A DNA stretch of 14,023 bases. Origin: Pseudomonadota bacterium (GTDB taxonomy: Bacteria; Pseudomonadota; Gammaproteobacteria; Xanthomonadales; Rhodanobacteraceae). Numbering within the stretch: position 1 is the stretch's first letter; each line of letters starts with the position of its first letter. Under the pieces are notes generated by a model. It saw only the letters and a list, made by a program, of their open reading frames with translations, ran no database searches and was not told where the DNA came from. The stretch covers positions 1 to 14,023 of the forward strand of contig JANXVS010000079.1 of NCBI GenBank assembly GCA_025351555.1, written 5' to 3'. Made by a program: the position numbers and the translations under genes. Shown here in pieces: positions 4,284 through 13,814 of this stretch.

Positions 4284-4493
4284 ATGTTGACTACCCTGGT
4301 CATCGTCGCGTTTCTGATCGTGATCGTCTACAACCTGGGCGCTGGCCTGTACTACATGATGACCGACAAGGGCCAGACCGACCGCACGGTCAAGGCGCTC
4401 ACGCGCCGCATCGGCCTATCGGTGCTGCTGATCCTGCTCGTCATCCTCGGCATCTGGACCGGCGTGATCAAACCGCACGGCCTGGGACATTGA
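4284..4493 (+). CDS. DUF2909 twin-transmembrane protein of the cox locus
   Basis: This 69-residue protein has two membrane helices (about 2-24 and 45-62). They are joined by a conserved polar loop, MTDKGQTDRTVKALTRRIG, and followed by a short PHGLGH end. The layout matches the DUF2909 'twin transmembrane protein' family, found beside surf1 and coxC in many gammaproteobacteria. Its biochemical role is not established; an assembly or stability role in the oxidase is inferred from location. The ATG at 4284 is chosen over an earlier in-frame start because an AAGGAAA ribosome-binding site lies about 8 bp upstream and the family begins at MLxxL. A TATACT hexamer at 4246-4251 could be the -10 of its promoter, but no good -35 is seen. 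It is the only plus-strand gene inside the cox run, 12 bp from the convergent coxC end. Confidence 0.9.
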   Translation: MLTTLVIVAFLIVIVYNLGAGLYYMMTDKGQTDRTVKALTRRIGLSVLLILLVILGIWTGVIKPHGLGH

Positions 4494-4505
4494 ACAGCAG
4501 CACTC

Positions 4506-5375
4506 TTACAGTACGTACACAAACATAAACAGGCCCAGCCAAACCACGTCGACGAAGTGCCAGTACCAGGCCACCGCTTCGAACGCGAAGTGGTGATCCT
4601 TGTCGAAGTGGCCCTTGAGGCAGCGCAACCAGATCACGCTGAGCATGATCGCACCCAGGGTGACGTGCATGCCGTGGAATCCGGTCAGCATGAAGAACGT
4701 CGAGCCGTAGACGCCGCTGCCCAGGGTCAGATTCATCTTGGTGTAGGCCTCGATGTATTCGCCGGCCTGGAACTTCAGGAACAGTGCGCCGAGGATGACG
4801 GTCGCCCCCAGCCAGATCAGTAGTTGCGTGCGCCGACCGGCGCGCAGCGCGTGATGGGCGATGGTGATGGTGACGCCGGAAGACAGCAGGATCAGGGTGT
4901 TCAGCAGCGGTACGCCCCATGCCGGCATGCTCTCGAAGCTGCCGCCGATAGCGCCGGGACCATTGGTCGGCCATGCTGGCGTGTAGCCTTTCCACAGGAA
5001 GAAATTCGTCAGCGCGCCATCGCCCTCGCCGCCAATCCACGGCACCGACATATTGCGCGCGTAAAACAGCGCGCCGAAGAACGCCGCGAAAAACATCACT
5101 TCAGAGAAGATGAACCACATCATGCCCATGCGGAACGAGGTGTCGACCTGCTTGCTGTAGATACCGGCCAGAGATTCCCCGATGACAGTGCGGAACCAGC
5201 CGAACATCATCGACAACAGACAGGCAATGCCGAACGCCATGAGGTATTTGCCGTAGGGGGTGGTCTCATTGATCCATAGCGCCGCGCCAACGACGGTGCT
5301 GGACAAGCCGATTGAACCCAGGAACGGCCAGCGCGTGCCGTGAGGGACGTAATAAGCGCCTTGTGCTTGTGCCAT
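4506..5375 (-). CDS. coxC: Cytochrome c oxidase subunit III
   Basis: This is the seven-helix core subunit that stabilises subunit I and supports proton uptake through its bound lipids. The 289-residue product begins with AYYVPHGTRWPFLGSIGL. It contains TSFRMGMMWFIFSEVMFFAAFFGALFY split across helix 3, with its conserved Glu. Later come GVTITIAHHALR, FQAGEYIEA, a GFHGMHVTLG helix and the terminal FEAVAWYWHFVDVVWLGLF. It is longer than mitochondrial-type subunit III because of a loop (about 108-150, MSVPWIGGEGDG onward). I recall this loop in related gammaproteobacterial sequences. An AGGA ribosome-binding site lies about 9 bp upstream of the ATG. The ctaG stop is 29 bp upstream, and the gene ends 12 bp from the convergent DUF2909 gene. 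ctaE is a synonym. Confidence 0.96.
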   Translation of the reverse strand: MAQAQGAYYVPHGTRWPFLGSIGLSSTVVGAALWINETTPYGKYLMAFGIACLLSMMFGWFRTVIGESLAGIYSKQVDTSFRMGMMWFIFSEVMFFAAFFGALFYARNMSVPWIGGEGDGALTNFFLWKGYTPAWPTNGPGAIGGSFESMPAWGVPLLNTLILLSSGVTITIAHHALRAGRRTQLLIWLGATVILGALFLKFQAGEYIEAYTKMNLTLGSGVYGSTFFMLTGFHGMHVTLGAIMLSVIWLRCLKGHFDKDHHFAFEAVAWYWHFVDVVWLGLFMFVYVL

Positions 5376-5404
5376 GAGGGTGTTCCTGTAAGGAAATCTT
5401 GTAT

Positions 5405-6031
5405 TTACAAAGTGCGGCTAGGGACGGCCACTTTTTGATCTTCGCGATCACGGATGATCGCACCAGTTACGGCCTGTTCGGCCAGCTTTTTCGTCGCCAG
5501 TTCATTATTGTAAAAAGTATACGAAAGCGTCAGCGTGTCGACATCGCGCGGCAGCTGCGGATCGACAATGAACTTGAGCGGCATGCGCCGCGACTCGCCC
5601 GCTTGCAACACCTGCTCGGTGAAGCAGAAGCACTCGGTCTTGTTGAAGTACAGCGACGCGGTCTTGGGCGCGATGCTCGGTACCGCATTGCCGACGATCG
5701 CCTTCGGCGCGATATTCGTCGCATCGAACCAGGCTTCGCTCAGCACGCCCGGATGCACGCGGACGCTGACCTTTTCCGGCGCAAAGTGCCAGGCAAGCGT
5801 GCTATTGACACTGCCGACAAACTGCACGGTGACCCAGCGCGACGGATCGGCAGCAAGCGCAGCGACTTTCGCACCGCCTGCGGCCTGCGCGTCGAGCTTG
5901 ATGCCCAGCACGTGCACACAGGCGATGCGGTACAGCGGCACGCAGGCGAAGCCGAACAGGAACATCGCGCCGCACGCGATCAGCGCGCGTTTCAGAAACT
6001 GCTGGTTGCGTTGCGTGGCGTTCGTTTCCAT
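5405..6031 (-). CDS. ctaG: Cytochrome c oxidase assembly protein CtaG/Cox11 (CuB chaperone)
   Basis: This membrane-anchored periplasmic protein delivers copper to the CuB site of subunit I. In the 208-residue product an anchor (about 16-34) is followed by VPLYRIAC with Cys38. The Ig-like domain contains NAVPSIAPKTASLYFNKTE and the copper-binding CFCF pair (Cys134, Cys136), then MPLKFIVDPQLP and LTLSYTFYNN. The start METNATQ at 6031 is chosen because it overlaps the stop of the small upstream gene (TGATG). A longer frame to 6100 would only add residues overlapping that gene. The last 20 residues (from about Val188) are encoded by a two-hairpin repeat also found after coxA, so this tail is not ancestral CtaG sequence. 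The family normally ends at a similar length, so the domain itself looks intact. Confidence 0.95.
   Translation of the reverse strand: METNATQRNQQFLKRALIACGAMFLFGFACVPLYRIACVHVLGIKLDAQAAGGAKVAALAADPSRWVTVQFVGSVNSTLAWHFAPEKVSVRVHPGVLSEAWFDATNIAPKAIVGNAVPSIAPKTASLYFNKTECFCFTEQVLQAGESRRMPLKFIVDPQLPRDVDTLTLSYTFYNNELATKKLAEQAVTGAIIRDREDQKVAVPSRTL
5409..5469 (-). repeat. Two-hairpin repeat, copy A (within the ctaG 3' end)
   Basis: This 61-bp unit aligns with 6170-6231 at 52 of 62 positions (9 substitutions, one single-base gap). Hairpin 1 is a perfect 7-bp inverted repeat, GCGATCA at 5444-5450 and TGATCGC at 5455-5461, with a 4-base loop. Hairpin 2 (5409-5434), read on the minus strand, pairs AAAGTGGC with GCCG-CA-CTTT around an 8-base loop. 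It has a bulged CA and one U-G wobble. The wobble pair forms only in the minus-strand transcript, the strand of the cox mRNA. The unit lies wholly inside the ctaG reading frame and encodes its tail. It is an unnamed dispersed element, REP-like in layout. Confidence 0.75.
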
Positions 6032-6162
6032 CAGTGCCAGAGAAACTGCTTGACGAAGAACAGTACGAAGATCGCGAATGCAATGCCGCCAACGATCCAC
6101 ACCGTGCGACGGATGCCGGCGCGGCGCTGATCAGGATTCGTGCTGGCGGTTTGTTCATTCAT
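6031..6162 (-). CDS. Cytochrome oxidase small assembly protein (single-helix)
   Basis: The 43-residue product has a polar N-terminus (MNEQTASTNPDQRR), one hydrophobic helix at about 20-38 and the ending VKQFLWH. Small single-helix proteins at exactly this place, between coxA and ctaG, are annotated in related bacteria as cytochrome oxidase small assembly protein. A role with CtaG is inferred from that position and from the TGATG overlap with ctaG. The ATG at 6162 gives the family-like N-terminus. The frame is open upstream to a GTG at 6225, but those codons belong to the repeat element, so I do not include them. No Shine-Dalgarno is present. The base of repeat hairpin 2 ends only 7 bases before the ATG. 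Confidence 0.82.
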   Translation of the reverse strand: MNEQTASTNPDQRRAGIRRTVWIVGGIAFAIFVLFFVKQFLWH

Positions 6163-6169
6163 AGTTTGA

Positions 6170-6231
6170 AAAGTGCAGCCAGGGACAGCTGCTTTTTGAT
6201 TTCCGCGATCATGGATCGATCGCACAAGTTA
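6170..6231 (-). repeat. Two-hairpin repeat, copy B (between coxA and the small assembly gene)
   Basis: This is the second copy of the element at 5409-5469. Hairpin 1 is GCGATC at 6205-6210 paired with GATCGC at 6218-6223. Hairpin 2 (6170-6195), read on the minus strand, pairs AAAGCAGC with GCTG-CA-CTTT, keeping the 8-base loop and the CA bulge of copy A. Relative to copy A one stem position changes from G-C to A-U on both arms, and another from U-G to C-G, so pairing is preserved. The first base of the unit is the first base of the coxA TAA stop codon, so the element supplies that stop. Confidence 0.75.
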
Positions 6232-7860
6232 GTGTGTGATGTCGCCGTGCGCCAGATCCTCGTCATGAATCACCGGCGGCGTCTCAAATGTATGGAACGG
6301 CGCCGGCGAGGGCACGGTCCATTCCAGGCCATGCGTACCTTCCCAGACATGCATGGTCGCGGGCGCGCCCGACTTGAGCGAACGGCGCAGGATCAGGAAC
6401 ATCATGATCGGGGTCAGGAACATGCCATAGGCGCCGATCGTGGAGACCAGATTCCAGTCCGCGAATGCGACGTTGTAATCAGGGATGCGGCGCGGCATGC
6501 CGGCCAGGCCGAGGAAGTGCTGCGGGAAGAACAGCACGTTGACGAACACCATGCTCCACCAGAAATGCACCTTGGCCCAGGTCTCGTTGTACATCCTGCC
6601 GGTCCACTTCGGCCACCAGTAGTAGATCGCGCCGATGATCGCGAACAGTGCGCCGGTGACCAAAACGTAGTGAAAATGCGCGACGACGAAATAGGTATCC
6701 TGATACTGGAAATCGGCAGGCACGAGCGCGAGCATCAGGCCGGAGAAACCACCGATCGTGAACAGGATCACGAACGAGATGGCCCATAGCATCGGCGTCT
6801 CGAAGCTCATCGAGCCGCCCCACATTGTCGATACCCAGTTGAATACCTTAACCCCGGTCGGCACTGCGATCAGCATCGTCGCGTACATGAAGTACAGCTC
6901 ACCGCCAAGCGGCATGCCGACGGTAAACATGTGATGACCCCAGACGATGAACGACAGGAACGCGATCGACGCGATCGCAAACACCATCGCCTGATAGCCG
7001 AACAGCGGCTTGCGGCTGAACGTCGGGATGATCTCGCTGACGATGCCGAACGCCGGCAGGATCATGATGTAGACCTCGGGGTGGCCGAAGAACCAGAAGA
7101 TGTGCTGGAACATCACCGGATCGCCGCCGCCCGCGGCGTTGAAGAAGCTCGTACCGAAATATTTGTCGGTCAGCAGCATGGTCACCGCGCCGGCAAGCAC
7201 CGGCATCACCGCGATCAGCAGGAACGCCGTGATCAACCAGCTCCATACGAAGATGGGCATCTTCAACAGATCCATGCCGGGTGCGCGCATGTTCAGGATC
7301 GTCGCGATGATGTTGATCGCGCCCATGATCGAGGAGATTCCCATCAGATGCACCGAGAACACCAGGAACGCGACACTGTTGCCGCCCTGGATGGCGAGCG
7401 GTGGATACATCGTCCAGCCACCAGCCGGCGCGCCGCCCGGCATGAACAGCGTCGACAGCAGGATCGTGAACGCAAACGGCAGGATCCAGAACGACCAGTT
7501 GTTCATGCGCGGCAGCGCCATGTCCGGCGCGCCGATCTGCAACGGGATCATCCAGTTCGCGAGGCCCACGAAGGCCGGCATGATCGCGCCGAAAATCATC
7601 ACCAGCGCGTGCATCGTGGTCATCTGGTTGAAGAAATACGGCTGCACGAACTGCAAGCCGGGTTTCATCAGCTCGGTGCGGATCACGCCCGAGAACGCCG
7701 CACCGACGCAGGCCATGATGAACGCAAAGATCAGGTACAGCGTGCCGATGTCCTTGTGATTGGTCGAGAACACCCAGCGGTTGAAGAAACCGTGTGGCTT
7801 GTGGTTGTGGTGATCATCTTGCGCATGATCGGCGTAATGTGCGGCGGCGTGGATAGCCAT
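6229..7860 (-). CDS. coxA: Cytochrome c oxidase subunit I (aa3 type)
   Basis: This is the catalytic subunit. It reduces O2 at the heme a3-CuB centre and pumps protons. The 543-residue product carries all expected ligands: His84 (TTMHALVM) and His397 for heme a, His395 for heme a3 (AHFHYV), and His260, His309 and His310 for CuB (FGHPEVY, WGHHMF). The crosslinking tyrosine is Tyr264. Proton-path residues are Asp113 in GAPDMALPRMNNW and Glu262 in GHPEVY (D pathway) and Lys338 in PTGVKVFNW (K pathway). This makes it an A1-type heme-copper oxidase. A GAGG ribosome-binding site precedes the ATG, 15 bp after the coxB stop. The N-terminus is His-rich (HAAAHYADHAQDDHHNHKPH). The stop codon is provided by the repeat at 6170-6231. 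ctaD is a synonym. Confidence 0.98.
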   Translation of the reverse strand: MAIHAAAHYADHAQDDHHNHKPHGFFNRWVFSTNHKDIGTLYLIFAFIMACVGAAFSGVIRTELMKPGLQFVQPYFFNQMTTMHALVMIFGAIMPAFVGLANWMIPLQIGAPDMALPRMNNWSFWILPFAFTILLSTLFMPGGAPAGGWTMYPPLAIQGGNSVAFLVFSVHLMGISSIMGAINIIATILNMRAPGMDLLKMPIFVWSWLITAFLLIAVMPVLAGAVTMLLTDKYFGTSFFNAAGGGDPVMFQHIFWFFGHPEVYIMILPAFGIVSEIIPTFSRKPLFGYQAMVFAIASIAFLSFIVWGHHMFTVGMPLGGELYFMYATMLIAVPTGVKVFNWVSTMWGGSMSFETPMLWAISFVILFTIGGFSGLMLALVPADFQYQDTYFVVAHFHYVLVTGALFAIIGAIYYWWPKWTGRMYNETWAKVHFWWSMVFVNVLFFPQHFLGLAGMPRRIPDYNVAFADWNLVSTIGAYGMFLTPIMMFLILRRSLKSGAPATMHVWEGTHGLEWTVPSPAPFHTFETPPVIHDEDLAHGDITH

Positions 7861-7875
7861 GATGAACCTCTGGAT

Positions 7876-8832
7876 TTAAAGTGCTGTCGGCACGGCGGAC
7901 GCGCCGGTTGCAACTGGCGGTGCCGCAGGCGTGGGAATCGCGGGCGCGGGCGCCGCTAACGGCGCATTCGCCTTCGCGTAGGCAGCTTCCTGCTCGTCCA
8001 GCCATTTCTGGAATTCGGCCATCGGCACCGCCTTGACCACGATCGGCATGAAGCCGTGATCCTGACCGCACAGCTCGGCGCACTGGCCGCGGTAGATACC
8101 CGGGTCGTGGATGTTCGTCCATGCGTCGTTGATGATTCCGGGGATGGCATCCTGCTTCCAGCCCAGCTCCGGCACCCACCAGGCATGAATCACGTCATCG
8201 CCGGTGACGACGAAACGAATCTTTGTGTCGGTCGGCAGCACCAGCGGATGATCGACATCGAGCAGATAGGTCTGATCGTTGCCCTGCTTGACCGCAAACG
8301 GATCGAGGCCGGATTTGAGCTGGCGCGTCTTGTCGCTTTGCGGATCCAGGCGCGAGATGAAATGCACGTGATAGGGTTTGTCGCCGAGATTGATGTAGTC
8401 GTAACCCCACTTCCACTGATAGCCGGTGACCTTCACGGTCATCTGCGATTCTTCGGTATGGGCCATGCCGATCATGACCGTTGTCGCCGGCCACGCCAGC
8501 GCGATCAGGATCGCGATCGGCACCACAGTCCAGATGATCTCGGCGATGGTGTTATGCGACCAGGTCGCCGCGACCGCGCCTCTGGATTTGCGGAACTTGA
8601 ACATCGCCACGATCATGGCGCCGAACACCAGAAAGCCGATCACGCAGCACACGTAGAACGCAAGCATGTGGATGCCGTAGACCGTACGCGAGGTCTCGGT
8701 GACTCCTTCGGTCATGTTCAACTGCCAGGGCTGCGACAGCGCCTGTGCGGCGCCCGTCAGTGCCGCCAGAGCGGCGCCCAATACCCAATTGAATCCGCCC
8801 AGTCTGCTACGCATCAAGCCGGCACCCTTCAT
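7876..8832 (-). CDS. coxB: Cytochrome c oxidase subunit II (CuA)
   Basis: This subunit accepts electrons from cytochrome c at the binuclear CuA centre and passes them to subunit I. With the ATG at 8832 the product has 318 residues. It has a signal peptide (about 1-31, ending AAQA), two membrane helices (about 52-77 and 97-121), the aromatic YQWKWGYDY (138-146) and a cupredoxin domain. The CuA ligands are present: His216, Cys251, Glu253, Cys255, His259 and Met262 (VIHAWW, CAELCGQDHGFM). The tail after about 288 is Ala/Pro-rich with no heme-binding CxxCH, so this is not a caa3 fusion. A GGGTG ribosome-binding site supports 8832. The ATG at 8814 (MRSRLGGF) is an almost equally good start. A promoter candidate lies at 8904-8932. 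ctaC is a synonym. Confidence 0.96.
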   Translation of the reverse strand: MKGAGLMRSRLGGFNWVLGAALAALTGAAQALSQPWQLNMTEGVTETSRTVYGIHMLAFYVCCVIGFLVFGAMIVAMFKFRKSRGAVAATWSHNTIAEIIWTVVPIAILIALAWPATTVMIGMAHTEESQMTVKVTGYQWKWGYDYINLGDKPYHVHFISRLDPQSDKTRQLKSGLDPFAVKQGNDQTYLLDVDHPLVLPTDTKIRFVVTGDDVIHAWWVPELGWKQDAIPGIINDAWTNIHDPGIYRGQCAELCGQDHGFMPIVVKAVPMAEFQKWLDEQEAAYAKANAPLAAPAPAIPTPAAPPVATGASAVPTAL

Positions 8833-8903
8833 TCGTTTCACCCTGCATCGAAAGTTCCATTGCCCCACCGCTGTCCTGCATCGACGCGATCCTTAACCCG
8901 CTA

Positions 8904-8932
8904 ATGATAGTGAGCGCGCCAACGGCGGGCAA
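8904..8932 (-). promoter_or_regulatory. Candidate sigma70-like promoter of the cox operon
   Basis: Read on the minus strand, TTGCCC (8927-8932, 4 of 6 to TTGACA) is followed after exactly 17 bp by TATCAT (8904-8909, 5 of 6 to TATAAT). The predicted transcript would start near 8897, giving a leader of about 65 bases before coxB. This lies in the 210-bp divergent coxB-putA intergenic region. On the putA side only a weak TAAACT at 8989-8994 is seen, without a convincing -35. The call rests on hexamer matching only. Confidence 0.45.
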
Positions 8933-9042
8933 GTTTGGGTTGCGGCGGAGCGTACCCACGGCGCCTGCGTAGTCGTGCGCGAGGCTGCTAAACTGTGCGG
9001 CCTTGCGTCGTTTCAAGCACCTGCCTGCGACCCAAAAAACCG

Positions 9043-12000
9043 ATGACTGCAGCCATTCTCATCCCCGAACTCCCCGCCGTACCCGACGCCGCGCGCGCGC
9101 GCCTGACCGCCGCCTATTGCCGCGATGAAACCCAGGCGATGGACGAACTGCTGGCCCAGGCCACGCTACCACCGGCCGAACGCGATCTGGTGCTGGCGCG
9201 CGCCACTGAGCTTGTCGCGCGCGTGCGCGCCAAGGCGAAAAATCAGTCCGCGGTCGAATCGTTCATGCGCGAGTACGACCTGTCCAGCGAGGAAGGCGTG
9301 CTGCTGATGTGCGTGGCCGAGGCGCTGCTGCGCATTCCGGACAAGGCGACGGCGGACAAACTCATTTCCGACAAACTCGGCGACGCGAACTGGGAAACAC
9401 ATCTGGGCAAAAGCGATTCCGTGCTGGTCAATGCCGGCACCTGGGGGCTGATGCTGACCGGCAAGCTCGTCACCCTCGCGGACGAGACTCAGCGCAACGT
9501 CGCCGGCGCGCTCAAGCGCCTGATCGGCCGCGCCGGCGAACCCGTCATCCGCCTCGCCGTGCGTCAGGCCATGCGCATCATGGGCCACCAATTCGTCATG
9601 GGCCGCACGATCAAGGAGGCAATGGATCGTTCCGTCGAGAAGGACAATCGCGCCTACCGTTATTCCTACGACATGCTCGGCGAAGCCGCGCTCACTCAGC
9701 CCGACGCCGAGCGTTACCACAAGGCGTACAAAGATGCGATCGTTGCACTCGGCGCGCGCGGCCCGTATAAAAATGTACTCGATGCACCGAGTATCTCGAT
9801 CAAACTGTCGGCGCTGCATCCGCGCTATGAAGTGGCTAAGCGTGCGCGCGCTCATGCCGAATTGACACCCAAGCTTCTGGAACTGGCGCAGCTGGCGAAG
9901 AAGAACGGCATCGGCCTGACCGTCGACGCCGAAGAAACCGATCGCCTGGAACTGTCGCTGGAAATCATCGCGGCCGTGCACGCCGACGCCTCACTCGCCG
10001 GCTGGGACGGTTATGGTCTGGCGGTGCAGGCCTATCAGAAACGCGCGCCCTTCGTGATCGACTGGCTGGCCGAACAGGCCAAGAAAACCGGCCGTCGTTT
10101 CTGCGTGCGCTTGGTCAAGGGCGCGTACTGGGATTCGGAGATCAAGCGCGCGCAGGAAGGCGGCCACGCCGGCTATCCCGTGTATACGCGCAAACCCAAT
10201 ACCGATGTTTCGTACCTGGCCTGCGCGCGACGTCTGTTCGATCACGAGGCGGCGTTCTATCCAGCGTTCGCCACGCATAACGCGCATACGATCGCCGCGA
10301 TTCATCATCTGGCCAATGGACGTCCATTTGAATTCCAGCGCCTGCACGGCATGGGCGCGGATCTATATGCAGAAGTCGTCGGCGAGAAGAACCTCAACGT
10401 CCCTTGCCGGGTTTATGCGCCTGTCGGTTCGCATGAAGATCTGCTGCCGTACCTCGTGCGCCGCCTGCTGGAAAACGGCGCCAATACCTCATTCGTCAAT
10501 CGCATCGTCGACGAATCGCTGCCGATCCGCGATCTGGTCGCCGATCCGGTCGATACAGTGCGCGCCTTCACCACCATCCCGCATCCACGCATCCCGCAAC
10601 CCATCGCCATGTTCGAGCAGATCACCACCGGCGAGCAACGGAAGAATTCCATGGGCGTCAATTTCGGCAACGACAATGAATTGAAAACTTTGGCCGACGA
10701 CGTCGCCAAGATTGCAACGAATTGGAACGCGGCACCGCTGGTTCCGGGTGCCATGCTCACCGGCGAAAAGCAGCCCGTGACCGATCCCTCCGATCGCCGC
10801 CGCCAGATCGGCACCAAGCAGCAAGCCGACGCGGCGACCGTCGAACGCGCGCTGGCCAATGCCGTCGCAGCGCAGCCGGCCTGGGACCATCTGCCCGCCG
10901 CATCACGCGCGAAAATTCTCGAGCACGCCGCTGATCTCCTCGAAGCACGCCGCGCGCAGTTCGTCGCGCTATGCGTGCGCGAAGCCGGCAAGACCCTGCC
11001 GGCAGCGATTTCCGAAGTCCGCGAGGCCGCCGATTTCTGCCGCTACTACGCGGCGATGGCGCGCAAGCTGATGGGCCATCCGGAAACCTTGCTCGGGCCC
11101 ACCGGCGAATCCAACGAATTGTCGCTGCACGGCCGCGGCGTCTTCGTCTGCATCAGCCCGTGGAATTTTCCGCTGGCAATTTTCATGGGCCAGGTGGTTG
11201 CCGCACTTGCCGCCGGTAACTCCGTGATCGCCAAGCCTGCCGATCAAACCGTGCACATCGGTCACGCGGCGGTGAAACTGCTGCACGAAGCCGGCGTGCC
11301 CGAAAATGTTTTGCAATTCGTTCCGGGCAAAGGCTCGATGCTCGGCGACACCTTGCTGACGAAACCCGATGTCGCCGGCGTGTGCATGACCGGCTCGACG
11401 ACAACCGCCTGGACAATCAATCGCACGCTGGCCGCACGCAACGCGCCGATCGCCGCTCTGATCGCCGAGACTGGCGGCCAGAACGCGTTCATCGCCGACT
11501 CGTCCGCACTGCCGGAACAACTGGTCAAGGACGTCGTCGCCTCCGCCTTCGACTCCGCCGGTCAGCGCTGCTCGGCCGCACGCGTGCTGTTCGTGCAGGA
11601 CGATATCGCCGACAAGGTGATAGCCATGCTGTCTGGCGCGATGGATGAATTGAAGGTCGGCGATCCGGGACTGCTCTCGACCGATGTCGGCCCGGTGATC
11701 GATGAGCCGTCGCGCAAGAATTTGGTCGATCACGCCGCGCGCATGGATACCGAAGCCAAGCTGATCAAGCAGGTGCCACTCGGACCGGAATGCGCGAACG
11801 GCACCTACTTCGCGCCGCGCGCGTATGCGCTGAAGTCGCTGTCACAGCTCACGCACGAGGTCTTCGGCCCTGTGTTGCATGTACTGCGCTGGAAGGCCAA
11901 CGAACTCGATGCCGTGATCGACGCGATCAATGCGACCGGCTTCGGTTTGACCTTGGGCATCCACAGCCGCATCGATTCCACAATTGCGCATATTTCACAA

Positions 12001-12207
12001 CGCGCCAAAGTAGGCAATTGCTACGTCAACCGCAACCAGATCGGCGCCGTCGTCGGCGTGCAACCTTTTGGCGGCGAGAACCTGTCAGGGACGGGCCCGA
12101 AGGCGGGTGGGCCGCATTACTTGCTGCGCTTCGTGACGGAGCGGACGTTGACGGTCAATACGACGGCCGCGGGGGGGAATGCCTCGTTGCTCACACTTGG
12201 CGAGTGA
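9043..12207 (+). CDS. putA: Bifunctional proline dehydrogenase / L-glutamate gamma-semialdehyde dehydrogenase (PutA, short form)
   Basis: PutA oxidises proline to pyrroline-5-carboxylate with FAD, delivering electrons to quinone, then oxidises glutamate semialdehyde to glutamate with NAD. The 1054-residue product starts directly with the helical arm region. It lacks the N-terminal ribbon-helix-helix domain of the 1320-residue E. coli enzyme, so it should not repress its own gene. The proline dehydrogenase barrel (about 180-500) includes SISIKLSALHPRYE, FCVRLVKGAYWD and the substrate-binding Arg473/Arg474 in RRLLENGANTSFVNR. The aldehyde dehydrogenase half (about 560-1030) includes ISPWNFPLAIF, MTGST, Glu809 in ETGGQNAF, the catalytic Cys843 in SAGQRCSA and EVFGPVLHV. 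It ends at NTTAAGGNASLLTLGE without the extra C-terminal domain of longer PutAs. The ATG at 9043 is preferred over a GTG at 8995. No good ribosome-binding site is seen. Its last 17 bp overlap the convergent HNH gene. Confidence 0.96.
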   Translation: MTAAILIPELPAVPDAARARLTAAYCRDETQAMDELLAQATLPPAERDLVLARATELVARVRAKAKNQSAVESFMREYDLSSEEGVLLMCVAEALLRIPDKATADKLISDKLGDANWETHLGKSDSVLVNAGTWGLMLTGKLVTLADETQRNVAGALKRLIGRAGEPVIRLAVRQAMRIMGHQFVMGRTIKEAMDRSVEKDNRAYRYSYDMLGEAALTQPDAERYHKAYKDAIVALGARGPYKNVLDAPSISIKLSALHPRYEVAKRARAHAELTPKLLELAQLAKKNGIGLTVDAEETDRLELSLEIIAAVHADASLAGWDGYGLAVQAYQKRAPFVIDWLAEQAKKTGRRFCVRLVKGAYWDSEIKRAQEGGHAGYPVYTRKPNTDVSYLACARRLFDHEAAFYPAFATHNAHTIAAIHHLANGRPFEFQRLHGMGADLYAEVVGEKNLNVPCRVYAPVGSHEDLLPYLVRRLLENGANTSFVNRIVDESLPIRDLVADPVDTVRAFTTIPHPRIPQPIAMFEQITTGEQRKNSMGVNFGNDNELKTLADDVAKIATNWNAAPLVPGAMLTGEKQPVTDPSDRRRQIGTKQQADAATVERALANAVAAQPAWDHLPAASRAKILEHAADLLEARRAQFVALCVREAGKTLPAAISEVREAADFCRYYAAMARKLMGHPETLLGPTGESNELSLHGRGVFVCISPWNFPLAIFMGQVVAALAAGNSVIAKPADQTVHIGHAAVKLLHEAGVPENVLQFVPGKGSMLGDTLLTKPDVAGVCMTGSTTTAWTINRTLAARNAPIAALIAETGGQNAFIADSSALPEQLVKDVVASAFDSAGQRCSAARVLFVQDDIADKVIAMLSGAMDELKVGDPGLLSTDVGPVIDEPSRKNLVDHAARMDTEAKLIKQVPLGPECANGTYFAPRAYALKSLSQLTHEVFGPVLHVLRWKANELDAVIDAINATGFGLTLGIHSRIDSTIAHISQRAKVGNCYVNRNQIGAVVGVQPFGGENLSGTGPKAGGPHYLLRFVTERTLTVNTTAAGGNASLLTLGE

Positions 12208-12892
12208 GGCGAGCGCGAAGGACTTCAATGGAGAGAGTTTCTTTCTCTCTATGCAGCATGGCATGGCAGTTTGGACAGACCGGGCGCAAATCCTTTATAG
12301 GGTTTACCTGATACTCGCGCCCAATGTCCGATAACGGGGTGAGATGGTGTACATGGATGAACCCTGCTCCTAAATCACCGTACACCTGTTCGAACGAAAA
12401 ATCACAAACAATGCATACGGCGCCGTAGTGCTTAATGCACATGAGCCGAGCATCCTTGTCGCGCTCGTACCTGGATGCAAGAACGCGGACCAATGCGCCT
12501 TCCATGTGTGCAGCACCCGACTGAAGATCGTCAGTGTCTTCTTGCACGAAGCCAGGATCGGGAAGACTCTCTCCGAGAAGGGCTTCTAGCTGACTCAAAA
12601 GCGCTGGGCTGTGCCCGGCCGCAACTCCCTTGCTGCTTTTCTTGCGAGCTGCAAGATCTACCGCATCAAATAATGCCGGACTCAACGAATCAATTGCCGA
12701 GATGAATTCGTGCTCTGGTTGATACGGGAGTTCTGCCAGCAGCGACCCGGGGATCGATGGATAGAACCCGCGTTCGTCCTTCCCCGCAAAAAGCTCCACA
12801 TGTCTGGATCGCGCTTCTAACGCCTTGTTTCCTACGATGAGGCGCACGTGATTTTCATTTGTCGTCAGAATTTCTGTCCAACCGACATTCAA
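12191..12892 (-). CDS. HNH endonuclease, C-terminal part of a frameshifted EVE-HNH protein
   Basis: This is the catalytic half of a probable modification-dependent restriction endonuclease. The open frame (233 codons from a TTG at 12892) ends in a zinc-supported HNH (beta-beta-alpha metal) fold. CIVC (codons 160-163) and CPNC (206-209) form the zinc knuckles. HVHHLTPL (His182/His183) provides the catalytic histidine. Asn197 and His214 in NPIKDLRPVCPNCHAMLH complete the motif. The preceding FEQVYGDLGAGFI is typical of this HNH subgroup. The TTG is unlikely to be the native start. The frame continues upstream with a sensible sequence (VTDYGWGVR) up to the homopolymer at 12919-12925, where it would join the EVE-containing half. 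It has no ribosome-binding site of its own. Its 3' end overlaps putA by 17 bp on the opposite strand. Confidence 0.85.
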   Translation of the reverse strand: MNVGWTEILTTNENHVRLIVGNKALEARSRHVELFAGKDERGFYPSIPGSLLAELPYQPEHEFISAIDSLSPALFDAVDLAARKKSSKGVAAGHSPALLSQLEALLGESLPDPGFVQEDTDDLQSGAAHMEGALVRVLASRYERDKDARLMCIKHYGAVCIVCDFSFEQVYGDLGAGFIHVHHLTPLSDIGREYQVNPIKDLRPVCPNCHAMLHREKETLSIEVLRARLTRQV

Positions 12893-13814
12893 TCGTACGC
12901 CCCAGCCATAGTCGGTAACCCCCCCAGCGCTCAGGCCCGTGAGCCGCCGCGCGCCGAATCAGTGTTCCCAGCAGCTGAACAAGCTTGGTTTGCAGTGCGC
13001 CTGGAACAATTGCTAGTGGTCCCACATCCGCTCGTGATAGCTCAGGCCATACGTTAGCCATCGAAGGATTCCTGCAGGTGAGCACGTGATGAAGATGTTC
13101 TCCTTCTGCCACCGTGAGGCGAAGCACTGAAGCAGCAGGTCCATTTTTCAAGAACAGCGCACCCTGCAACACGTGATCGTTGCGAAGCTCGTCCAAGGTC
13201 AACGGATGCGCCGCAACGTCCGAGAGGTAGTGCACGTTGTAAAGCGTTTCGCCCTCGGAAGTAACTTCGCCGGTTTCACCTTCAAATTCGCCCAGCGCGA
13301 TCAGTTCACGGCGCGGCGAAGACGCCCAAAAGAGCAGTCGATCGCCAGCGCGCCAATCACGCGGAGGACGTTTCGTTCGCCACGGTCCGCGCTCTCCGCG
13401 TTTGATGAACTCAAATGCGCCATTCTCGGCGGGGCTTCCGCGTACCAGCCAATAATTCACGTGGCTTTGCAGTTCAGGTGCTTCGGAACCCGCTCGGTTC
13501 CCGACGGGGGAGGAAGAGATGAACCCGTCCCGCATGCAGTGTTTACAAGGCTCTACGCTGACTCGCGATGCTTTTGCCCACGCAAAGAGCTTGTCTTCGG
13601 AATCCGCGCAGACTTTGCGTTTCCTTGTCAGAGAATTCGTGCCATCGCTGTCCGCCATCCAATCCGTGGATCCGAGATGCCCGCACTGCGCGCCGTGCAG
13701 ATTCGTCGACAGCTGAGTAACGAAGTTCAAGAACATGCCATCAGGATTGGCGTCTCGCCACGCCTGGAACTCGTCGTGCTGGGAAATGCCGTCTCGATCC
13801 TCGAAGGTTTTCAT
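12855..13814 (-). CDS. EVE-domain protein, N-terminal part of a frameshifted EVE-HNH endonuclease
   Basis: This 319-codon frame carries the sensor half. Residues 1-100 form a conserved-looking region with FLNFVTQLSTNLHGAQCGHL, Cys44, Cys69 and Cys90-x2-Cys93, a possible zinc site. From about 119 an EVE (PUA-like) domain begins with VNYWLVRGSPAENGAFEFI and continues with DWRAGDRLLFWASS and RELIALGEFEG. EVE domains in EVE-HNH enzymes such as VcaM4I flip out and recognise modified cytosine, which suggests restriction of modified (for example phage) DNA. Residues after about 298 (GYRLWLGRTIECRLDRN) are out of frame relative to the HNH half. The ATG at 13814 has a GGAG ribosome-binding site 5 bp upstream. 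The gene lies 82 bp downstream of an IS transposase end on the same strand. Confidence 0.82.
   Translation of the reverse strand: MKTFEDRDGISQHDEFQAWRDANPDGMFLNFVTQLSTNLHGAQCGHLGSTDWMADSDGTNSLTRKRKVCADSEDKLFAWAKASRVSVEPCKHCMRDGFISSSPVGNRAGSEAPELQSHVNYWLVRGSPAENGAFEFIKRGERGPWRTKRPPRDWRAGDRLLFWASSPRRELIALGEFEGETGEVTSEGETLYNVHYLSDVAAHPLTLDELRNDHVLQGALFLKNGPAASVLRLTVAEGEHLHHVLTCRNPSMANVWPELSRADVGPLAIVPGALQTKLVQLLGTLIRRAAAHGPERWGGYRLWLGRTIECRLDRNSDDK

Follow-up and report, generated by a model that had tools for sequence, protein, structure and literature searches.

A dispersed two-hairpin repeat of Rudaea and its family, with two copies in a cytochrome oxidase operon

Introduction

The window analysed here is a whole contig of 14,023 nucleotides from a draft Rudaea genome (2.78 Mb in 603 contigs, 80% complete). 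It carries a cytochrome oxidase operon in which Pfam recognises coxI, ctaG, coxII and coxIII as neighbours of two similar units, each able to fold into a pair of hairpins. The closest ctaG loci are those of Rudaea, a genus of the Rhodanobacteraceae (NCBI), and of other Lysobacterales. The question raised by this locus is what such a pair represents: a sequence duplicated within one operon, two members of a mobile family resembling the REP/BIME elements, or an RNA structure serving the cox message.

Results

The sequence-only reading of this DNA had reported 52 matches over 62 aligned positions between 5409-5469 and 6170-6231, and the alignment indeed gives 52 matches in 62 columns. The local alignment score of unit 1 against unit 2 is 41, compared with 15 for the best match of unit 1 elsewhere in the window on either strand, and an independent repeat search of the window recovers the pair at 81% over 52 nt. 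The two hairpins claimed for each unit were seen in both, on either strand, upon folding; relative to shuffled sequences, the minus strand of unit 2 folds clearly better (z -3.5), the other three folds giving z of -1.1 to -1.7. On the plus strand, hairpin A (hairpin 2 of the earlier reading) is followed by hairpin B (its hairpin 1). The hairpin to which an 8-base loop had been attributed exists, but the family form has a 6-nt loop closed by C-G, the closing pair of hairpin A being C.A in unit 2 and T.G in unit 1. The proposed compensatory double change between the units, G-C against A-U, is real and falls in alignment columns 15 and 28. Coordinates are collected in Table 1.

Table 1. Features of the two units and of the neighbouring cox genes (positions in the window)
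Feature	Position	Strand	Basis and details
Unit 1, copy of the two-hairpin repeat, 3' end of ctaG	5402..5469	+ (antisense to cox operon)	R1 match 78.9 bits, E 2.6e-22
Unit 1 hairpin A	5414..5431	+	Stem 5414-5419/5426-5431; C5415.A5430 mismatch, T5419.G5426 wobble; loop AGGGAC 5420-5425; sequence, consensus structure
Unit 1 hairpin B	5444..5461	+	GCGATC 5444-5449 / GATCGC 5456-5461; loop ACGGAT 5450-5455; sequence, consensus structure
Unit 2, repeat copy filling the gap from the coxI stop codon to the next ORF	6163..6231	+ (antisense to cox operon)	R1 match 81.2 bits, E 4.3e-23; gap letters
Unit 2 hairpin A	6175..6192	+	Stem 6175-6180/6187-6192; C6180.A6187 mismatch; loop AGGGAC 6181-6186; then TTTTT; terminator-like on + strand in scan
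Unit 2 hairpin B	6205..6223	+	GCGATC 6205-6210 / GATCGC 6218-6223; loop ATGGATC 6211-6217; sequence, consensus structure
coxI	6229..7860	-	Pfam COX1, E 6e-159; the last triplet of unit 2 serves as stop codon
ORF of 43 residues immediately following unit 2 and overlapping the start of ctaG	6031..6162	-	Translation
ctaG, cytochrome oxidase assembly	5405..6031	-	Pfam CtaG_Cox11, E 2e-45
ctaG end, where the element encodes roughly the 21 final residues (188-208) and the stop codon	5405..5470	-	Translation, codon coordinates
coxIII, downstream of unit 1	4506..5375	-	Pfam COX3, E 2e-61

Elsewhere in the window, beside a putA-like gene (8995-12207), two adjoining minus-strand ORFs (12191-12892 and 12855-13814) show an HNH endonuclease domain (E 1.5e-6) and, narrowly below the cut-off (22.7 against 23 bits), a match to the EVE domain; our guess is that they possibly form a modification-dependent restriction pair.

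A BLAST search with unit 2 returned 12 further copies at E<=0.003, and a covariance model, R1, was built from these and the two window units. R1 gives at least 40 matches at E<=0.01 in this draft genome and at least 101 at E<=1 in R. cellulosilytica DSM 22992 (G007), copy counts that are minima because the candidates scored by R1 are capped at 25-150 per genome. At E<=0.1 the repeat is present in 16 of 16 genomes of the genus and in 8 of 8 other genomes of the family (the weakest, G018, at E 0.019), whereas among 16 genomes from other families of the order 12 were without a match and four had one to five. At the stricter E<=1e-4, at least one match was found in 86 of 117 genomes and 20 of 26 genera drawn from the family; in a draw from the order, 27 of 200 genomes matched; four of these belong to other families, and each of the four has one or two matches. 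Both units are copies of one dispersed, non-autonomous, two-hairpin intergenic repeat of about 68 bp belonging to Rudaea's family. Two copies alone, with no covariation at homologous loci, was the outcome by which the earlier reading would have reduced the pair to a local duplication; the repeat survives this comparison, with its many copies in the genome and the covariation in cox loci described below.

Unit 2 had no match in plasmid and phage collections, and none of the papers listed in literature searches described the repeat, as judged by titles and the beginnings of abstracts. Rfam gave 0 matches in the window and, on three element-bearing loci, no element at the gathering score, a Xoo8 match (18.8 bits, cut-off 90) overlapping an element in L243. 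The same locus holds the Rfam 5'_ureB sRNA above cut-off (7483-7769, 134.9 bits), antisense to the urease genes, and two elements lie in neighbouring gaps of this cluster. Sub-threshold matches to sX9, a Xanthomonas sRNA, occur on the minus strand in L224 (2535-2610, 36.5 bits) and L243 (14901-14983, 33.8 bits), the cut-off being 44.

The size, copy number, extragenic place and hairpins of the repeat are all REP-like, and Y1_Tnp is found above cut-off in three of the 16 genus genomes, as could be expected if a RAYT (Y1_Tnp) missing from the draft genome had mobilised a REP/REPIN family. The 13 other genus genomes, however, have no Y1_Tnp match over the cut-off. The consensus of 165 matches bears no GTAG or CGTC end tag, which extends to the family what had been remarked of the GTAG head in the two units. 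The link to REP/BIME elements through a RAYT, which the same reading had raised, found no support: 30 Y1_Tnp loci, among them all 11 family matches listed, were searched with flanks of up to 1.5 kb and gave no R1 match at E<=1. Movement by such a transposase is thus considered very unlikely.

Across relatives, R1 was run on 80 other ctaG loci and gave 26 matches at E<=1. The coxI-ctaG gap is filled in 14 of the 80, in several genera (L105-L107, L109, L110, L112-L115, L119-L121, L123, L135), with weak matches in L132 and L138, and the copies in this gap are antisense to the operon every time. This shared place and orientation suggest that the coxI-ctaG copies were inherited, re-insertion or conversion being the alternative. 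In other gaps of the cox operon, copies are found in sense in L105, L109 and L114 and in antisense in L120. The 176-bp ctaG-coxIII gap of L114 holds an inverted repeat (CACGAAGATCACGAAG ... CTTCGTGATCTTCGTG), long and imperfect, that does not resemble the element. The place of unit 1, at the ctaG end, is occupied in two of the 80 loci (L116 and L138), both times right after the stop codon, and the relatives' matches to the CtaG of the window mostly end near residue 186. Unit 1 is a separate insertion: the ctaG frame enters the element, which adds some 21 residues to the C-terminus of the protein and provides the stop codon.

The 761 bp that separate the two units would agree with a local duplication inside the operon, an origin to which we attach almost no probability. 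The occupancy of the two places in other loci speaks against it, and it was rejected on the copy census of the genome. The two units agree at 82% of 60 columns, less than each agrees with a copy elsewhere in the genome (0.867 and 0.833), so that unit 1 is no duplicate of unit 2.

The plus-strand consensus reads AAAAGT-GCGGCC[ANGGAY]GGCCGC-TTTTTGATTTTC-GCGATC[ANGGAY]GATCGC-AAAA. In full, from 165 aligned matches of three genomes, it is TTATTGAAAAGTGCGGCCAAGGATGGCCGCTTTTTGATTTTCGCGATCAGGGACGATCGCAAAAATAA, with TTATTGAAAAGT at its start and AAAAATAA at its end. The stems of the two hairpins differ (GCGGCC and GCGATC) and the loop consensus ANGGAY is common to both, being exact in 52 loops A and 75 loops B of 104 high-scoring copies. 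Stem B varies (GCGATC, GCGTTC, GCGCTC, GCAATC, GCCATC, GTATTC and others), mostly with a matching partner arm, a recurrent exception being GCGATC with GAGCGC, an A.G found in 13 of 66 copies. Covariation was examined in 14 cox copies, namely the window's and 13 of the 14 from the coxI-ctaG gap (L120, which is interrupted, was left out). In these, 93.5% of cells are paired and five pairs are changed on both sides, whereas 0-1 of 500 shuffles were as good and slid structures pair 24.5-41%. In the same copies GGA in loop A and GG in loop B are invariant and the N positions vary. A constant loop consensus on covarying stems argues for a single-strand structure, which appears, from these alignments, to be under selection.

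The genomic placement of the repeat was followed by calling genes, with a home-made hexamer model, in 1.19 Mb of G007 and 0.8 Mb of Rudaea sp. 3F27F6 (G014). After removal of seven copies inside predicted genes and three at stretch ends from 132 unique copies, 122 remain in gaps, 100 tandem, 18 divergent and 4 convergent, against the 62, 23 and 15% predicted by intergenic bases, in stretches that were chosen around matches throughout G014 and for the most part in G007, the first 400 kb of the latter (8 copies) being unselected. Copies favour gaps between co-directional genes and avoid convergent gaps. Many copies nearly fill their gap, a few bases separating them from the gene on each side, and the element ends, by eye, often provide the stop codon of the preceding gene; 12 of 163 copies lie inside predicted genes. 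In the tandem gaps of three genomes, 50 copies are sense and 67 antisense. The replication-strand bias is inconsistent, at 27:32 in G007 (14 unclear) and 30:11 in G014 (18 unclear).

Between G007 and G014, 166 collinear gaps could be compared: 10 are filled in both (in one case the match is partial, 20 nt), nine in G007 only, eight in G014 only and 139 in neither, several of the empty sites being short or overlapping gene junctions. The repeat is gained and lost between these two Rudaea species. The genes beside gaps filled in both, 18 of 19 of which were scanned, include COX1; acyl carrier protein and ketoacyl synthase; ScpA and ScpB; a rhodanese; SecB and glycerol-3-phosphate dehydrogenase; urease gamma and a cupin; ZapA and 5-FTHF cyclo-ligase; and a UvrD-type helicase. 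Amplification within a genome is seen in G052, where 68 of 300 pairs among the top 25 listed copies are at least 90% alike and an amplified subfamily (L346-L365) has CCGCCCGTTTGAT after hairpin A. In some loci units of about 65 bp are arrayed in tandem, and L350 of G052 has four of them consecutively. With regard to MITEs, which carry terminal inverted repeats and a target-site duplication, the element ends are, by eye, only weakly inverted, and the filled and empty pairs are too diverged to fix the ends.

Such gain and loss, the amplified subfamily and tandem arrays, the mixed orientation and the insertion into the ctaG end are what a purely selfish hairpin repeat would leave, one that folds as single-stranded DNA during its spread, has no use for the host and survives in operon gaps as genes cannot be interrupted there. 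We regard this explanation as unlikely, because structure and loops are kept behind coxI across genera, provided that those copies were inherited and not re-inserted or converted, and because convergent gaps, the safest places, are avoided.

The loops allow another reading, in which the element is a dispersed double RsmA/CsrA site. Each hairpin shows on the plus strand an ANGGAY hexaloop closed by C-G, and this loop consensus with its closing pair is CANGGAYG, free N included, the consensus given for P. aeruginosa RsmA in the account of PMC7705225. Sense transcripts of a copy would then be bound by RsmA close to the following start, whereas the remaining copies would work as decoys or by way of antisense transcripts. 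At least one ANGGAY-type site (N optional) is kept in 115 of 163 copies, and the loop positions invariant in the cox copies, around a varying N, fit the same motif. In Xanthomonas an sRNA that binds RsmA and derives from the 3' end of an mRNA is described, RsmU (PMC7694677).

Also in favour of the RsmA reading, G.T on the plus strand outnumbers A.C by 55:24 in the 104 high-scoring copies, most strongly in sense copies (18:2; antisense 18:12; divergent 6:8), and by 8:5 in the 14 cox copies, counts that lean to R1 in that matches and alignments come from a model already favouring G.T and the copies are related and non-independent. These counts also bear on the wobble, possible on the minus strand alone, from which a cox-mRNA strand had been deduced: it is present in unit 1 (C5415/A5430), but the deduction finds no support in the family, where G.T prevails on the plus strand. 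As a mutation control, G>A was found more often in antisense copies (45/469) than in sense copies (17/350; p 0.011), so the difference in G.T between sense and antisense may be mutational.

Other observations count against the RsmA reading. Antisense to the surrounding genes are 67 of the 117 tandem-gap copies and those behind coxI, the latter being the best conserved, and divergent copies show no G.T excess. A site is kept in 42 of 50 sense and 42 of 67 antisense copies (raw p 0.013), an effect that is gone once general decay is controlled (permutation p 0.21). The copies shared by G007 and G014 are antisense in seven cases and sense in three, those of a single species in five and nine (hand tally, p 0.21). 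Moreover, the motif was noticed after looking, and csrA, found in 24 of 30 relatives, does not discriminate. It is unlikely, in our estimation, that the element is such a double site. We are equally doubtful of the wider proposition, drawn from the loop sequences, that the family has spread a ready-made RsmA/CsrA site, about 100 times in some species, into operon gaps, so that a mobile repeat would rewire or titrate a global post-transcriptional regulator.

The region behind coxI was then considered in loci without the element. In the 70 nt after coxI, z<=-2 is reached in 18 of 62 such loci; the corresponding values after ctaG (0/63), coxII (1/56) and coxIII (26/63) come from windows that frequently extend into the following gene, the gaps between ctaG and coxIII being mostly 15-50 nt, so these controls are partly coding. 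With the element, z<=-2 is reached in only 7 of 17 loci. Unrelated inverted repeats stand directly after the coxI stop codon in L108, L111, L116, L118, L124, L125, L128, L129, L130, L134, L136, L137 and L139, all without the element. The element therefore occupies a place where other hairpins recur in related operons, which is read as support for a role in mRNA. A scan of 4400-9000 for terminator-like hairpins found five, with 3.2 (sd 2.0) expected; the hairpin of unit 2 was among them on the plus strand only, and no unit hairpin on the cox strand. The T run after hairpin A does not differ between sense and antisense copies (p 0.16). The mRNA role inside the operon that had been suggested from the sequence is thus favoured by the folds recurring after coxI, rare as they are after ctaG and coxII, and disfavoured by the good folds also seen after coxIII, by the modest share of element-bearing loci reaching z<=-2 and by the lack of a terminator-like unit hairpin on the cox strand; the sequences hint at an intercistronic mRNA role behind coxI.

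Discussion

We propose that the element is a dispersed hairpin repeat which, in transcribed operon gaps, would act as an intercistronic mRNA module, a reading whose chances we consider evenly balanced. Copies would spread without an adjacent RAYT. Where one comes to lie in a transcribed operon gap, its hairpins may stabilise the upstream message, slow read-through or separate the next start from the preceding gene. Unit 2 sits behind coxI, a position at which related operons repeatedly show stem-loops. Two aspects of the distribution count against this module. Since copies stand both in sense and in antisense, no single RNA strand is always made, and the avoidance of convergent gaps is unexpected for a general protector of 3' ends.

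The repeat is REP-like without the REP hallmarks tested, and it is found in most sampled genomes of one family. Its copies sit in gaps of core operons, behind coxI, at acyl carrier protein/ketoacyl synthase and ScpA/ScpB, and around SecB. As copies differ between two related species, they offer natural pairs of filled and empty gaps for testing effects on operon expression. Should RsmA bind these loops, the sites of a global regulator would be spreading with a mobile repeat.

Among known systems, REPINs and BIMEs with their RAYT have in common with this repeat a two-hairpin unit, intragenomic amplification and occasional tandem arrays. The repeat differs from them in that its loops are not mutually inverted and no Y1 transposase is associated. 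With the RsmA/CsrA-binding hairpins, as presented in PMC7705225, it shares the loop and closing pair; it differs in being a dispersed repeat found in both orientations, a candidate site by sequence. RsmU of Xanthomonas, of the same order, is likewise a GGA-motif RNA, from an mRNA 3' region; the likeness is one of description, RsmU appearing in that account (PMC7694677) as a single sRNA locus and not as a repeat family. The REPs of the GTAG/CGTC super-families are defined by one end carrying the tetranucleotide GTAG or CGTC in unpaired form, and CGTC repeats lack a RAYT as well, according to PMC3733652. Like them, as characterised there, the repeat is short, palindromic, extragenic and hairpin-forming, present in tens to hundreds of copies, often paired and in some cases clustered, but it has neither the GTAG/CGTC end tag nor a RAYT alongside. 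Being a short palindrome in many extragenic copies, it is, by the features compared, a REP-like dispersed palindromic repeat, neither a GTAG/CGTC REP nor RAYT-linked. By analogy, it may work like an intercistronic REP without belonging to that class.
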